Shown here: positions 38,631 through 47,509 of the stretch, in pieces
Numbering within the stretch: position 1 is the first letter of the stretch
Layout: the number at the start of each line of letters is the position of its first letter
Assembly (NCBI GenBank): GCA_013002175.1
Contig: JABDKP010000026.1
Coordinates: 1-58,439 of the forward strand
Direction of reading: 5' to 3'
Source of the DNA: Ilumatobacter sp.
GTDB lineage: Bacteria; Actinomycetota; Acidimicrobiia; Acidimicrobiales; Ilumatobacteraceae
DNA length: 58,439 bases
Position numbers and translations under genes: made by a program
The notes under the pieces: model-generated
What the model was told of the DNA's origin: nothing
The model's database searches: none
Seen by the model: only the letters and a program-made list of their open reading frames with translations

Positions 38631-38652
38631 GTTCGTGAAACGAATCACGAAC
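38631..38652. promoter_or_regulatory. Perfect inverted repeat GTTCGTGA-N6-TCACGAAC, candidate operator
   Basis: An 8-bp perfect inverted repeat (38631-38638 and 38645-38652) with a 6-base spacer lies between the divergent cyclase gene and the membrane-protein gene, 28 bases before that gene's start. The GTGA/TCAC half-sites with a 6-base spacer recall CRP/FNR-type sites, interesting beside a cyclase gene, but this is only a visual match. Confidence 0.5.
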
Positions 38653-38679
38653 GATAGAACTCTCGGAAAGGGGGTTGTC

Positions 38680-39462
38680 ATGTTGAAGAAGCCACTCGGA
38701 ATGCTGGGCGTGTTCCTGATCGTCGTCGGCCTTGGATACTTCGTCGGCGCAGGGGTTGCATACAGCAAGGTGCAGAGCGGGTACGGCTCGCTCCAGGCCT
38801 TCAGCGAAGCCCAGAACGTCACGCTGAACTACAACGAGGACGGCCAGCTGGTCGACCGGGGTACCGTCGAAGGTGCCCAGGCGATCATGTCGTTGCTCGA
38901 AAATGACTGGAACTTCCCGGTCGTCGATTCGGATCTCGATCCGAACGACCCACTGGTCAACAGCGCCAGCGAGTACATGTTCCAGATGGCGACGATCGTC
39001 TTCCACGTGTTGCACGGTGAACAGGCCGTGACGCTGACCGCTGATGACATCGCGGCCGGTATCGCGTCGGAGAAGCTCGCCGCCGACGGCACCTATGAAG
39101 GTGTGGTCGAGGCCTACCAGGGTCAAGTGCTCGAGCCCGGAACGTACATGGTCCCGGTCGACGGCCGCTACTGGACCGGCTTCGCCCGGACCGACATCCT
39201 CGACGGGCCCGCCCGTGAGGGTGCCTGGAGCGGAACCGCCCACGCACTGGTCGGTGAGCTGGGTGTCGGTGCGGCAACGCACAGCACGCTGCAGCTCGCT
39301 CTCGGAGTCGCCGCCCTGCTCGCCGGGCTGGGCGTCGTCTGCACCGCAATGGGTGTGGCGTTCATCTGGCACACCAAGAAGGACGGCGAGGTCTCCGCAC
39401 CGGACAGGATCCCCGAAGCGATGCTTCAGGACCGCCCCGACGTGGCGACCGAGAACGTCTGA
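38680..39462 (+). CDS. Membrane protein with two terminal membrane helices
   Basis: 260 residues from ATG 38680, behind GAAAGGGGG. An N-terminal membrane helix (GMLGVFLIVVGLGYFVGAGV, about 7-26) and a C-terminal one (QLALGVAALLAGLGVVCTAM, about 205-228) enclose a ~175-residue loop, probably extracytoplasmic, with acidic helices. The family is not known to me. A Lys-rich C-terminus (HTKKDGEVS) points into the cytosol. It is preceded by the GTTCGTGA inverted repeat, which may regulate it. Confidence 0.75.
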   Translation: MLKKPLGMLGVFLIVVGLGYFVGAGVAYSKVQSGYGSLQAFSEAQNVTLNYNEDGQLVDRGTVEGAQAIMSLLENDWNFPVVDSDLDPNDPLVNSASEYMFQMATIVFHVLHGEQAVTLTADDIAAGIASEKLAADGTYEGVVEAYQGQVLEPGTYMVPVDGRYWTGFARTDILDGPAREGAWSGTAHALVGELGVGAATHSTLQLALGVAALLAGLGVVCTAMGVAFIWHTKKDGEVSAPDRIPEAMLQDRPDVATENV

Positions 39463-39604: not shown

Positions 39605-40414
39605 GTGATCGACCGACGCCGCTCCGCTGCCGCCGCCCTCGCGGTGGTCGTGATGCTGCTCGCGGCATGCGGCGAGACGGCGACGCCTGCGGCCGACACA
39701 GCAGGCGTGACTCCCGCGCCGGAACCGACATCGACCGATGCCGCGGTGGCCGAGCCCGCCGCCGACCCGTCTGCCGATACCGCTTCGCAACCGGCGGTGA
39801 CCGAGCCGGTCGTTGCCGAGCCGGACGTGACCGACCCCGCAGTGACCGCAGCCGCAGCAACTGACCCTCCGGTGACACCCGCGTCGACCGACCCCCCGGT
39901 GACCGAGCCGGCGGTGACCGAGCCACCGCCGGCTCCACCGGCGGCCGTCATCGGCGGGCGAGAGTTGGCGGAGGCGCTCGCGGCACCCTCGGACATCGCG
40001 ACGAACGTGCTGCCCGATCTCGTCGTCGACGACGTGCGGCGCGAGACCAGGGTCAACCTGCGCAACGTCTTCCCGGCCGACCGGCCCGTGCTGATCTGGA
40101 TGTGGGCACCGCATTGACCGACGTGCCGTCGGGAGGCTCCCGACGTCGAGCAGTTCGCTCGTGATCATCTCCAGGAGGTCGAAGTGATCGGCCTCGGCAC
40201 GCAGGACAGCCTCGGGCAGGCCGAGGACTTCGTCGAGAAGTACGGCACCGAGTCGTTCACGATGCTGTGGGACGGCTCGTACCAGTCGTGGCAGGTGCTC
40301 GGCGTGTCCGGCCAACCGGCGGCGATCCTGTTCCAGTCGGACGGCACGCCGATCACCGGCTGGTACGGCGCGTTCCCCGAGACCGACGTCCTCGAACTCT
40401 CCGCCGCCACCTGA
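39605..40414 (+). CDS. Probable selenoprotein: TlpA/thioredoxin-like lipoprotein with UxxC active site
   Basis: 269 residues if TGA 40115-40117 is read as selenocysteine (residue 171). GTG 39605 starts a lipoprotein signal VVVMLLAACGET (Cys near 22), then a ~95-residue Thr/Pro/Glu-rich linker of PAVTEP-type repeats, then a thioredoxin fold. The strand before the site is PVLIWMWAPH, the site is U-Pro-Thr-Cys, and the same frame runs on through RREAPDVEQF, a cis-Pro loop SGQPAAIL and to a stop at 40412-40414. The TGA stands exactly at the first Cys of a CxxC, and a stem-loop follows. It is probably a membrane-anchored thiol-disulfide reductase. If not selenocysteine, the gene would be a truncated pseudogene; the intact 100-residue extension argues against that. 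Confidence 0.83.
40118..40150 (+). promoter_or_regulatory. Candidate bacterial SECIS hairpin after TGA of the TlpA-like gene
   Basis: Right after the TGA, CGTCGGGA (40127-40134) and TCCCGACG (40138-40145) form a perfect 8-bp stem with loop GGC. The loop guanines lie about 18-19 bases after the TGA, in the range of known bacterial SECIS elements, which have a conserved G in the apical loop. It is inside the coding sequence, as such elements are in bacteria. Confidence 0.65.
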
Positions 40415-40435
40415 CCGGCGCGCGAGACTGCGGGC

Positions 40436-40945
40436 ATGGGTTCCGGTGTCGATGTGGTCGATCAGCGGCGAGTGGTCGTCGCGGCGCTCCCGCTGACGCC
40501 GGCCGCCCGGGCCCGGCTGGGGTCACAGCTCACCGGCGCCCGCGTCGTCGACATCCGTGAGCAGGTCGAGCGCGCTGATCTCGTGCTCGCGCCGTCGTGC
40601 AGCCCGCAGACGATACGCGCCTTGAAGGAGGCGTACCCGGACGCCCGTCTGGTCGTCGTCGAGATCGAGGACTGGGAGTTCGACATCGATCTCCCCGGCC
40701 CGGTGAAGCGGCTGTTCGCCGCCGGCGCGGACGGCTACGTCACCGTCGACAGCATCGCCGAGCTCGCGGCGCACCTCGCGCCGAGCCGAGCCGCCACCGA
40801 TCTTCCGGACGCCGCCCACGCCGAGTTGTCGGCGCTGCCGGGCACGTCGCTCGACGAGATCATCATGTCGACGCTGGCTGACCGCATCCGCAGCGACCAT
40901 CCGTCGGCGCGACGCAAACGTTCGGGGACGCGCGATGGGAGTTGA
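40436..40945 (+). CDS. Hypothetical protein, Rossmann-like N-terminal half
   Basis: 169 residues from ATG 40436, 21 bases after the TlpA-like gene. VVVAALPLTPAARARLGS, ADLVLAPSCSPQTIRAL and ARLVVVEIEDWEF suggest a small alternating alpha/beta domain like a response-regulator receiver, but no clear phospho-acceptor site is seen. The last ~50 residues are charged and helical. I do not recognise the family. Close spacing suggests co-transcription with the selenoprotein gene. Confidence 0.6.
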   Translation: MGSGVDVVDQRRVVVAALPLTPAARARLGSQLTGARVVDIREQVERADLVLAPSCSPQTIRALKEAYPDARLVVVEIEDWEFDIDLPGPVKRLFAAGADGYVTVDSIAELAAHLAPSRAATDLPDAAHAELSALPGTSLDEIIMSTLADRIRSDHPSARRKRSGTRDGS

Positions 40946-41549: not shown

Positions 41550-43451
41550 TCAGCCGATGATCCCCCGCATCCGCAGAGCTTCGACCACTGCTTCGGCGGC
41601 CCCCTCGGCCGACATCACCGACGTATTGACACGGACCTCGGGCGCCTCCGGCGGCTCGTACGGCGAGTCGATCCCCGTGAAGTTCGCCAGCTCGCCCGCC
41701 CGCGCCTTGGCGTACAGGCCCTTCGGGTCACGCTCCTCGGCCACCTCGAGTGGGGTGTCGACGTGCACCTCGATGAACTCGCCGTCCTCGACGCGGTCCC
41801 GCGCCAGCTGCCGCTCGGCCCGGAACGGCGAGATGAACGACACGACCACGACGATGCCGGCATCGACCATCAGCGCCGACACCTCGGCAATCCGGCGGAT
41901 GTTCTCGACGCGGTCGGCGTCGGTGAACCCGAGGTCGCGGTTCAGGCCGTGGCGGACGTTGTCGCCGTCGAGGAGGTAGGTGCGCACGCCGTCGGCATGC
42001 AACTTCGCCTCGACGATGTCGGCGATCGTCGACTTGCCCGATCCGGACAGGCCGGTGAACCACACGACGCCGGGCTGCTGCCCGTTCAGCTCGGCGCGGG
42101 CGCCCTTGTCGACGCGCACGTCCTGCCAGTGGATGTTGTGCGACCGCCGCAGTGCGAAGTGCAGCAGGCCGGCGCCGACGGTGTTCTGCGTCAGCTTGTC
42201 GATGATGACGAACCCACCGGTGTCGCGATTGGTGGAATACGGGTCGAACGGGATCGCCCGGTCGAGGCTGAGGTTGCAGACCCCGATCTCGTTGAGCGCG
42301 AGCGTGTGCGCGGCGAGGTGGTCGAGCGTGTTCACGTCGACGCGGTACTTCGGATGGGCGATCGTGACACCGACGGTGCGCGTCCCGATCTTCATCAGGT
42401 ACGGGCGGCCCGGCAGCATCTCGTCCTCGTGCATCCACACGACGTGCGCCTCGAACTGATCGGCGACCTCGGCCGGCGAATCGGCCGCGCAGATCAGGTC
42501 GCCACGACTCGCATCGATCTCGTCGGACAGGGTGAGCGTGACCGACTGGCCGGCGACTGCCTCGTGGAGATCGCCGTCCATCGTGACGATGCGCTCGACC
42601 GTGCTCGTCGTGCCCGCCGGGAGCACTCGCACCGGGTCGCCCGGCTTGACGGTGCCACCGACGACGCGCCCCGAGAACCCTCGGAAGTCGTGACTGGGAC
42701 GGTTGACCCACTGCACCGGCATCCGGAACGGCGACGACGTCGCCTCGTCGTCGACCGGGACGGTCTCGAGATGGCCCATCAGCGTCGGCCCGTGGTACCA
42801 CGGCGTGTGCCCGCTCGGTTCGGTGATGTTGTCGCCCTTCAGCGCCGACACGGGGATGAACGTCACGTGGTCGATCCCGATGCGGCCGGCGAAGTCGAGG
42901 AACTCGGCACAGATCGCGTCGTAGATCTCGTGCGAATAGTCGACCAGGTCCATCTTGTTGACCGCGACCGCAACGTGCTTGATGCCGAGCAGCGACACGA
43001 GGTAGCTGTGGCGACGCGTCTGGGTCAGAACACCCTTGCGCGCATCGACCATCAGCACCGCGGCGTCGGCCGTCGACGCACCGGTGACCATGTTGCGCGT
43101 GTACTGCTCGTGACCGGGCGTGTCGGCAACGATGAACTTGCGCCGCTCGGTCGAGAAGAAGCGATAGGCGACGTCGATCGTGATGCCCTGCTCGCGCTCG
43201 GCGGTGAGACCGTCGAGGAGGAGGGCGAAGTCGAGGTCGGTGCCCTGGGTGCCGACCTTGGCCGAGTCGGCGGCGAGCTGCGCCAGGTGGTCTTCGAAAA
43301 CGAGATGCGATTCGTACAGCAGCCGTCCGATCAACGTGCTCTTGCCGTCGTCGACGCTGCCGCACGTGATGAACCGCAGCAGGCTCTTGTACTGATGCGA
43401 CGTCAGGTACTCGTCGATGTCGGTGGCAATCAAATCTGAAGCGTGGGCCAT
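41550..43451 (-). CDS. cysNC: Bifunctional sulfate adenylyltransferase subunit 1 / APS kinase (CysNC)
   Basis: 633 residues from ATG 43451, overlapping the CysD stop as TGATG. The first ~440 residues are the GTPase Cys[15 protein letters not shown] (P-loop), [15 protein letters not shown] and an EF-Tu-like C-terminal barrel. The last ~190 are the APS kinase Cys[13 protein letters not shown] (P-loop), [15 protein letters not shown]. The fused enzyme with CysD makes APS from sulfate and ATP and then PAPS. It is the second gene of the cysD-cysNC operon, under a candidate Rrf2 operator. It fits a sulfur theme with the window's sulfatases. Confidence 0.96.
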
Positions 43452-44371
43452 CAGAAGTAGCCCTCCTGCTTCTTCTTCTCCATCGAGCCCGACGCGTCGA
43501 AGTCGATGATCCGGCCCTGCCGCTCGGACGTCGTCGCGAGCAGCATCTCCTGGATGATCCCGGTCAGCGTGTCCGCCTCGCTCTCGATCGCCCCCGACAG
43601 TGGGTAGCAACCGAGCGTGCGGAACCGCACCGACCTGTGCTCGGGCACTTCGCCGTCGTTGAGCTGGAACCGGTCGTCGTCGACCATGATCAGCGTGCCG
43701 TCCCGTTCGACGACCGGGCGCGAGGCCGCGAAGTACAGCGGCACGATCGGGATCTGCTCGAGGTGGATGTACTGCCACACGTCGAGCTCGGTCCAGTTCG
43801 AGATCGGGAACACCCGCAGCGTCTCGCCGTTGCTGCGGCGGGCGTTGTAGAGCTGCCACAGCTCGGGCCGCTGACGCTTCGGGTCCCACTGATGCTGTGC
43901 GGATCGCACCGAGAAGACGCGCTCTTTGGCGCGGGACTTCTCCTCGTCTCGGCGGGCGCCGCCGAAACACAGGTCGAACCGATGCTCGTCGATGACCTGC
44001 TTCAACCCGTCGGTCTTCCACATGTCGGTGTGCATCGCCGAGCCGTGATCGAACGGATTGATCCCGCGCGCCACGCAGTCGGGGTTCTGGTGGACGACGA
44101 GATCGAGACCGTGCTCGGCGGCGGTCTTGTCGCGGAACTCGTACATGTCCGAGAACTTCCACGTCGTGTCGACGTGGACCAGCGGGAACGGCGGCGTCGA
44201 TGGATGGAACGCCTTGCGGGCGAGGTGCAGCATGCACGAGCTGTCCTTGCCGATGCTGTACAGCATCGCCGGGCGCTCGCTCTCTGCAACCGCCTCGCGC
44301 ATGATCTGAATCGCCTCGGCCTCGAGTCGTTGGAGATGGGTGAGGCGTCCGGCGTCGAGTGTCGTCGTCAC
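43451..44371 (-). CDS. cysD: Sulfate adenylyltransferase subunit 2
   Basis: 306 residues from GTG 44371. PP-loop ATP pyrophosphatase fold with [18 protein letters not shown] near residue 40, [20 protein letters not shown] and [16 protein letters not shown]. With CysN it makes adenosine phosphosulfate from sulfate. Stop overlaps the CysNC start. A candidate promoter and operator lie 40-75 bases upstream (44410-44448), next to the Rrf2 regulator gene. Confidence 0.95.
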
Positions 44372-44409
44372 GTGATGGTCCTGGCTGTCCGATGATTGTC
44401 TACTAAGTC

Positions 44410-44448
44410 TACCGACAATATGGTAAACAGATGTCTCGATTGTCTCAA
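44410..44448 (-). promoter_or_regulatory. Candidate cysD promoter with Rrf2 operator
   Basis: On the minus strand a -35-like TTGAGA (44443-44448) and a -10-like TACCAT (44420-44425) are 17 bases apart. The -10 overlaps an inverted repeat TACC-N8-GGTA (44410-44425) in an unusually AT-rich stretch for this genome. The adjacent Rrf2-type regulator is the obvious candidate to bind it and block transcription of cysD-cysNC. Confidence 0.55.
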
Positions 44449-44520
44449 GAGGTTCATCGGCACGAGTGCGGTCGAACACGAGCGCGCTGCCCGAGACGAG
44501 TGGCCGTGCGTGCGTGCAGC

Positions 44521-46957: not shown

Positions 46958-47509
46958 ATGACCGAGCGATCCGCAGTCGGCACGTTGCGCGTGGGCGACG
47001 GCCTTCCGTCGTTCCGGTTCGCCGACGGCCTGGGCGGAACGTGGTCGAGCGATGCCCACCGCGCGACCGGGGTACCGCTGGTACTGATCCTGCACCGACA
47101 TCTCGCTTGACTGCCGTGCCAGGAGCACGTGCTCGCCGTGAGCGAGCGCAGCGAGGAGTTCGGTGACACCGAGGTCGCCGTCGTCACGTTCACCGACCCG
47201 CGTCACCTCGATGCGTACCGGGCCCACCTCGGTGTGTCGTTCCCGGTTGTCGCCGACGTCGACCGTGCGCTGTACCGCGCCCTCGGACTCGAACGGGGCA
47301 CGTGGCGCCAGGTCTGGTCGATCGGCACACTCAAGCTGTACGCGCGCCTGCTGCGGCGGGGTCGGCGTCTCCGTCGCTCGACCGAGGACCTTCGCCAGCT
47401 CGGCGCCGATGTCGTCGTCGACGCCGACGGCACGATCGTCCGACTCTTCCGGCCGGCCAGTCCGGATGCCCGCCCCACGGTCGACGACCTGCTCGCGGCG
47501 CTGCGCTGA
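46958..47509 (+). CDS. Probable selenoprotein: AhpC/TSA peroxiredoxin-like protein with UxxC
   Basis: 183 residues if TGA 47108-47110 is read as selenocysteine (residue 51). From ATG 46958: GDGLPSFRFADGLGG is the usual redoxin lead-in, VPLVLILHRHLA the strand before the active site, then U-Leu-Pro-Cys, QEHVLAVSE, VAVVTFTDP, FPVVADVDRALYRALGL and VVVDADGTIVRLFRPAS. Both halves are in one frame and match the peroxiredoxin-like AhpC-TSA_2 type, in which this position is the first Cys of a CxxC. It is the second case in this window. A pseudogene would not keep such an exact frame and fold. Confidence 0.83.
47111..47134 (+). promoter_or_regulatory. Candidate bacterial SECIS hairpin after TGA of the peroxiredoxin-like gene
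   Basis: CGTGC (47115-47119) and GCACG (47125-47129) form a 5-bp stem with loop CAGGA, whose two guanines lie 12-13 bases after the TGA. It is shorter than the hairpin after the TlpA-like gene but has the same GG in the apical loop. Confidence is lower because a 5-bp stem is not rare in GC-rich DNA. Confidence 0.5.

Follow-up and report, generated by a model that had tools for sequence, protein, structure and literature searches.

The gene at 39605-40414 (forward strand) of the 58,439-nucleotide stretch of Ilumatobacter sp. DNA analysed here, referred to throughout as the window, very probably encodes a selenoprotein in which the in-frame TGA at 40115-40117 is decoded as selenocysteine (Sec). 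The basis for this reading is a conserved TGA with coding sequence beyond it, a full Sec machinery, RNA elements confined to TGA-containing genes, and an association of these genes with selB. The product is most likely an extracytoplasmic, membrane-tethered TlpA/DsbE-like thiol-disulfide oxidoreductase that would use Sec as its attacking residue. Because the isolated RNA fold is no better than shuffled controls (the 56 nt from the UGA are no more stable than shuffles, z = -0.72), the case for Sec rests on comparison among genes and genomes, and it is from such comparison that we infer actual Sec insertion at 40115-40117.

Gene and protein architecture

The reading frame opens at GTG 39605 and its sole internal stop is the TGA at 40115-40117, as an earlier note on this DNA had described; a second TGA at 40412-40414 is the terminal stop, and with the first read as Sec the product has 269 residues with Sec at residue 171. 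All features of the gene lie on the forward strand. Sequence and family pattern indicate a signal peptide (39605-39670) with the lipobox LLAAC, found in the context VVVMLLAAC and ending in the Cys encoded at 39668-39670; the lipobox pattern is present in 10 of 13 family sequences, including that of the window gene, and the remaining three have similar AAC motifs by eye. The Pro/Thr/Ala-rich linker that follows (39671-39964, approximately 98 residues), delimited from the sequence and by comparison with the family, is probably a tether between the membrane and the redox domain.

The C-terminal TlpA/DsbE-like domain (39965-40411) has the thioredoxin fold by Pfam, profile and alignment matches, with a UPTC active site and a cis-Pro loop, GQP. 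The Sec-translated protein passes the Pfam cut-offs for both Redoxin (PF08534, 38.3 bits) and AhpC-TSA (PF00578, 38.0 bits), and the TGA occupies the first position of the redox motif, where the earlier note had placed it. In a 12-row alignment (A2) positions W45, P49, U51, C54 and Q117-P118 show little or no variation, the resolving Cys of UPTC (40124-40126) and the Gln-cisPro pair Q117 P118 (40313-40318) being among the invariant ones. A single-sequence AlphaFold model of the protein was poor (mean pLDDT 40.8).

Selenocysteine machinery

The assembly to which the window belongs (3.33 Mb in 191 contigs, 89% complete, 3% contamination) holds SelA, SelB, SelD and tRNA-Sec. The selB gene scores 266.9 bits against a cut-off of 242.25 on contig C21, where selA (397 bits) lies directly upstream of it; the Pfam SelA domain was confirmed, and the C-terminus of SelB has a SelB-wing_3 domain. 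The tRNA-Sec scores 65.1 bits and has the anticodon TCA, and selD scores 376 bits with a TGA in its own active site (SHGAGUGCK). Searches for these four genes found none in the window and all of them on other contigs, so that the absence of selA, selB and selC from the window, noted previously, holds, and the genome-wide search then proposed has yielded the full set. A WhiB gene follows selB, and its position beside selAB supports an actinobacterial host. Each of four relatives assembled as single contigs (G111, G109, G102 and G519) has tRNA-Sec, selA and selB together with a TGA gene, and mis-binning is therefore not the explanation of the association.

RNA hairpins downstream of the TGA

Two adjacent hairpins follow the active-site codons. 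H1 (40127-40145; 8 bp, loop GGC, loop start 17 nt past the TGA) is the stem-loop with GG in its loop that the earlier note had seen and had taken for a bacterial SECIS, and H2 (40147-40161; CGAGC-AGUUC-GCUCG, loop start 34 nt past the TGA) is the probable SelB-binding SECIS core. Applied by hand, the bSECIS limits given in the available text of PMC13188914 (loop of 3-9 nt, G in the first two loop positions, stem of 4-16 bp, spacing of 16-37 nt, MFE at most -7.5) accommodate both hairpins, which resemble the published consensus in having a small apical loop with a G at 16-37 nt past the UGA; that model, as far as the available text describes it, has one hairpin, whereas the Sec subfamily to which the window gene belongs (subfamily 1) has two, both under selection. 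From +4 to +55 the window RNA reaches -20.3 kcal/mol with H1 and H2 both formed, and when folding starts at the UGA its minimum-energy structure has H1 without H2. A search of 39950-40450 against Rfam gave two matches, both far below their gathering scores.

The comparative signal is strongest over H2. All five pairs are kept in 54 of 55 subfamily-1 Sec genes and four in the other, while the 17 Cys genes keep between zero and three; the full hairpin is in the lowest-energy fold of 49 of the 55 Sec genes and is not full in six. Compensatory changes on both sides occur at three of the five pairs; one of the loci with such changes, L149, also differs in its protein motif (VAQFVQ versus VEQFAR). 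Compared for stability with synonymous recodings, H2 ranks in the top 5% in 54/55 Sec genes and 0/17 Cys genes. Codons over H2 are nearly frozen in the first 27 sequences (GTC 26/27, GAG 27/27, GCT 26/27), GCT elsewhere in the same genes making up 10% of Ala codons, and CGA is used over H2 in 20 of 26 cases against a background of 13%. Where the codon before the TGA (40112-40114 in the window, and its counterparts in homologues) encodes His, CAT is used in all 25 of 25 sequences, and two more sequences have TAT; CAC is preferred for His elsewhere, as judged from only nine background His codons.

H1 is, on the same comparative evidence, under selection, its stability ranking in the top 5% of synonymous recodings in 41/55 Sec genes and 1/17 Cys genes. 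Held in fixed register it is broken in many homologues, and at one pair 16 sequences have changes on both sides. That stability, and its agreement with the bSECIS limits in the available text of PMC13188914 (a 3-nt loop with G, a spacing of 17 nt), would also suit a reading in which Sec is real but H1 serves as the SECIS by itself, H2 being conserved through some other RNA or codon constraint. Such a reading is unlikely: pairs in fixed register are kept in 67.5% of cells for H1 against 99.6% for H2, the loop of H2 carries a G-U, and a second Sec subfamily has a single hairpin and, by eye, no H1. The near invariance of H2 and its G-U loop favour it as the SelB-binding core, and we regard H2 as probably the SECIS proper and H1 as an auxiliary element; of the original proposal, the selection on H1 and its fit to the published limits stand, but H1 accounts for only half of the RNA signal and is the less conserved of the two hairpins.

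The second Sec subfamily comprises 12 genes, including one on contig C179 of the window's own genome. Its hairpin has the loop GGUC in 12/12 genes, which we take to be the loop of the Escherichia coli fdhF SECIS, and compensated pairs in two. In none of the 12 genes does it rank in the top 5% for stability among synonymous recodings, and three of its four pairs are also kept in 6/17 Cys genes; because the stability test is negative, the case for this hairpin rests on the loop and the compensated pairs.

UGA-Sec decoding generally competes with termination, and the stem of H1 begins only 9 nt past the UGA, a placement that would also suit a regulated truncation in which the UGA mostly terminates, a short lipoprotein is the main product, and the Sec form appears only with selenium. 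It is very unlikely that the gene works chiefly in this way, as the N-terminal part alone shows no sign of being conserved, and among the 13 sequences viewed the linkers differ widely while the thioredoxin domain is conserved.

Distribution of the Sec and Cys forms

In a family sample of 221 genomes, every one of the 26 matches at or above a threshold of 96 bits, the window gene included, has the TGA, and these matches are spread over 20 genomes. The G120 match among them is split, contains a TAG in addition, and is probably decayed. A selB gene scores over the cut-off in 150 of the 221 genomes and in 19 of the 20 with a TGA gene, the exception being G114 (69% complete). In a class sample of 395 genomes, a threshold of E 1e-16 leaves 91 matches, spread over 67 genomes: 80 have one TGA, 10 are stop-free and the last is the second fragment of the gene that is split in G120. 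The TGA form is thus the common form among class-sample matches of the window protein. Collected homologues number 84, 67 with TGA and 17 with Cys; as the alignment suggested in the earlier note was expected to reveal, Cys lies exactly at the TGA column in 17/17 stop-free homologues read.

A nonsense mutation, or a misread TGC or TGT, would require but one base to turn the Cys codon into TGA, the assembly is in 191 contigs, and decayed-looking copies do exist elsewhere (locus L061, whose match is split and contains a TAG, and a second copy in genome G106). A pseudogene or sequencing error can nevertheless be given almost no credence here, given the same TGA in all close matches across 20 genomes and a single TGA in 80 of 91 class-wide, the coding conservation past it, and RNA elements that are present in TGA genes and not in Cys genes. 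Over codons +1 to +96 past the TGA, the window gene and locus L044 have 61 identical, 16 synonymous and 19 non-synonymous codons.

Presence of selB follows the form of the gene. It was tested in 42 of the 67 matching class genomes, and selB is over the cut-off in 31 of 33 TGA carriers versus one of nine Cys carriers (Fisher p = 3e-6); the column was read in fetched loci, and eight of the 33 TGA carriers are known only as one-TGA matches. The two TGA carriers without selB over the cut-off are G394 (79% complete) and G571 (82% complete), the sole Cys carrier with it is G391, and completeness is at least 92% in every one of the remaining eight Cys carriers. General readthrough or reassignment, with TGA standing for Trp, Gly or another standard residue throughout the lineage, would account for a frame open across the TGA but is scarcely tenable when 12 of 12 picked window ORFs (the window gene, CysNC and ten more) end in TGA, the aligned residue is Cys in every stop-free homologue read, and selB tracks TGA.

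In a quick tree of the 84 homologues the Sec/Cys label requires seven changes against a shuffled mean of 15.8, and the starred branches force three. Locus L136 (genome G298), a 45%-identical homologue with the motif WAPHCPAC whose genome has no selB over the cut-off, sits together with the f8 Cys group within a Sec-rich clade, a placement with modest support from few columns. The natural reading is that Sec was lost after loss of selB, although the tree alone cannot separate gain from loss. A search of genome contigs with the full protein gave 15 loci, mostly drawn by the Pro/Thr linker, and only a Massilia protein (Cys, 28%) matched the thioredoxin domain. Phages searched with the window protein gave no match.

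Proposed function and relatives

On the Sec reading, a ribosome reaching the UGA at 40115 would meet a SelB-GTP-Sec-tRNASec complex held by the downstream mRNA hairpins, which would decode the UGA as selenocysteine, and translation would continue as far as the second UGA at 40412 and end there. The product would be exported and then acylated at the lipobox Cys, so that the TlpA/ResA/DsbE-like thioredoxin domain would face outward on its long flexible linker. The selenolate of U171 is predicted to attack, and C174 to resolve the selenylsulfide; at the cell surface the enzyme may reduce, oxidise or isomerise disulfides, or remove oxidised sulfur species.

Membership of the TlpA/ResA/DsbE-like group is indicated by a thioredoxin domain with C/U-x-x-C and cis-Pro, by sequence only. 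The best solved relatives by profile are DsbF (PDB 3ios, E 4e-29) and MPT53 (PDB 1lu4, E 3e-25), which we take to be secreted thioredoxins of actinobacteria, presumably with Cys where the window protein has Sec. The DsbE/ResA/TlpA models (TIGR00385, NF002854, NF047696), which describe the fold of membrane-anchored or exported enzymes, were matched at E 4e-10 to 6e-4, but with scores far below the curated cut-offs, and no link to cytochrome maturation was seen. With Sec entered as Cys, none of the NCBIfam cut-offs for DsbE, ResA, TlpA, WAxxUGC and SaoT was reached, the best score being 39.7 of 123.15 bits. The WAxxUGC ResA-like family (NF041054), Sec-containing by name, matched weakly (24 bits, cut-off 300), and its motif is UGC whereas that of the window protein is UxxC.

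For a DsbD/CcdA or VKOR partner, the 89%-complete genome of the window gave no match to PF02683 or PF07884. In genome G193 a DsbD_TM gene lies approximately 6 kb from the Sec copy, and a similar gene is found in the G205 neighbourhood; in the same two genomes the Sec-TlpA gene adjoins a Cys-TlpA gene (L117 in G193, L118 in G205). A hydrolase-OsmC fusion lies within a few kb of Sec-TlpA in G193, with similar ORFs in G205. Among 21 neighbourhoods no stable operon surrounds the Sec gene, and context is shared by a few close genomes only. Pfam gave no match at E 0.001 for the window ORFs at 38635-39462 and 40436-40945. At 41550-44479 (reverse strand) the window has CysNC-like sulfate adenylyltransferase/APS kinase and CysD-like genes, identified by eye; against the selB model the CysNC-like gene reaches 108.5 bits through its EF-Tu-like part, far short of the cut-off.

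Relation to known selenoproteins and significance

Thioredoxin-fold selenoproteins with UxxC are known, and what is new is a Sec-dominant lipoprotein family of this lineage with a tandem-hairpin SECIS. In the available part of PMC13188914, Table 1 gives UxxC selenoproteins under cd02966 (thiol-disulfide isomerase-like), PF08534 (Redoxin) and PF00578, and the Sargasso Sea study (PMC1088965, likewise in its available part) describes a thiol-disulfide isomerase-like selenoprotein family with UXXC. The cd02966 and PF08534 entries, like the window protein, have a thioredoxin/TlpA-like domain with Sec first in UxxC, a likeness of description only, each entry having one representative and no host lineage in the table as available; by domain and motif only, a PF08534 score over the cut-off together with UxxC fits the Redoxin entry. 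Unlike those entries as they are described there, the window family is an actinobacterial-lineage lipoprotein with tandem hairpins. Actinobacteria already stand among the selenoprotein-containing phyla in the available text of PMC1794560, and Sec in actinobacteria as such is therefore not new. In open-access literature, mostly judged by title and with subscription journals mostly outside it, no paper was found on the window family, on Acidimicrobiia or Ilumatobacter selenoproteins, or on tandem SECIS hairpins.

A broader joint reading is offered tentatively, as possible rather than probable. H1 and H2 would together form a two-part SECIS, the entry-proximal H1 folding out approximately 20 nt, bringing H2 to SelB distance and perhaps slowing the ribosome at the UGA, and this would constitute a distinct bacterial SECIS class in a selenoprotein-rich actinobacterial lineage in which the surface-tethered Sec thioredoxin is ancestral and Cys versions arose after selB loss. 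Across the 67 Sec and 17 Cys homologues the two hairpins come and go with the Sec codon, which allows a bacterial SECIS to be tested by covariation, and the eight genomes that carry a Cys form and have no selB over the cut-off are natural material on what Sec adds. A gene caller treating UGA as a stop cuts the window protein off inside its active site; for this reason, and with no NCBIfam model reaching its cut-off, annotations probably truncate or miss the family.

Other candidate selenoproteins

At least seven TGA genes in the window's own genome look like Sec genes, where the available text of PMC5029168 sets the threshold for 'selenoprotein-rich' at six or more. They are the window gene, a 63%-identical paralogue on contig C139, the C179 gene (WAPTUSTC), selD, candidates on C73 (SSWUGC) and C49 (GDWUPFC), and a second gene in the window. 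These counts are lower bounds, because a PF00578 search of the genome missed the window gene itself. The earlier note had considered a selenoprotein of this type notable in such an actinobacterium; the selenoprotein reading is supported, but the gene is not isolated, given its paralogue, five or more further likely Sec genes, and the prevalence of TGA among class-wide matches.

The second likely selenoprotein gene in the window (46958-47509, forward strand) belongs to the AhpC-TSA_2 family and has its TGA at 47108-47110, in HLAULPCQEH; a homologue in G205, 61% identical, has a TGA at the same place. Tandem Sec-TlpA copies are found in three genomes of one genus (L106, at G109:C1:2920000-2936000, L107 and L108), with a spacing of approximately 1.7 kb in G109. 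The second G106 copy looks decayed, with the loop AAUUC and EACG for EAPD. Locus L112:1643 (G107) reads WAPWUPFURREAP, with TGA at both UxxC positions, and is possibly a UxxU protein.
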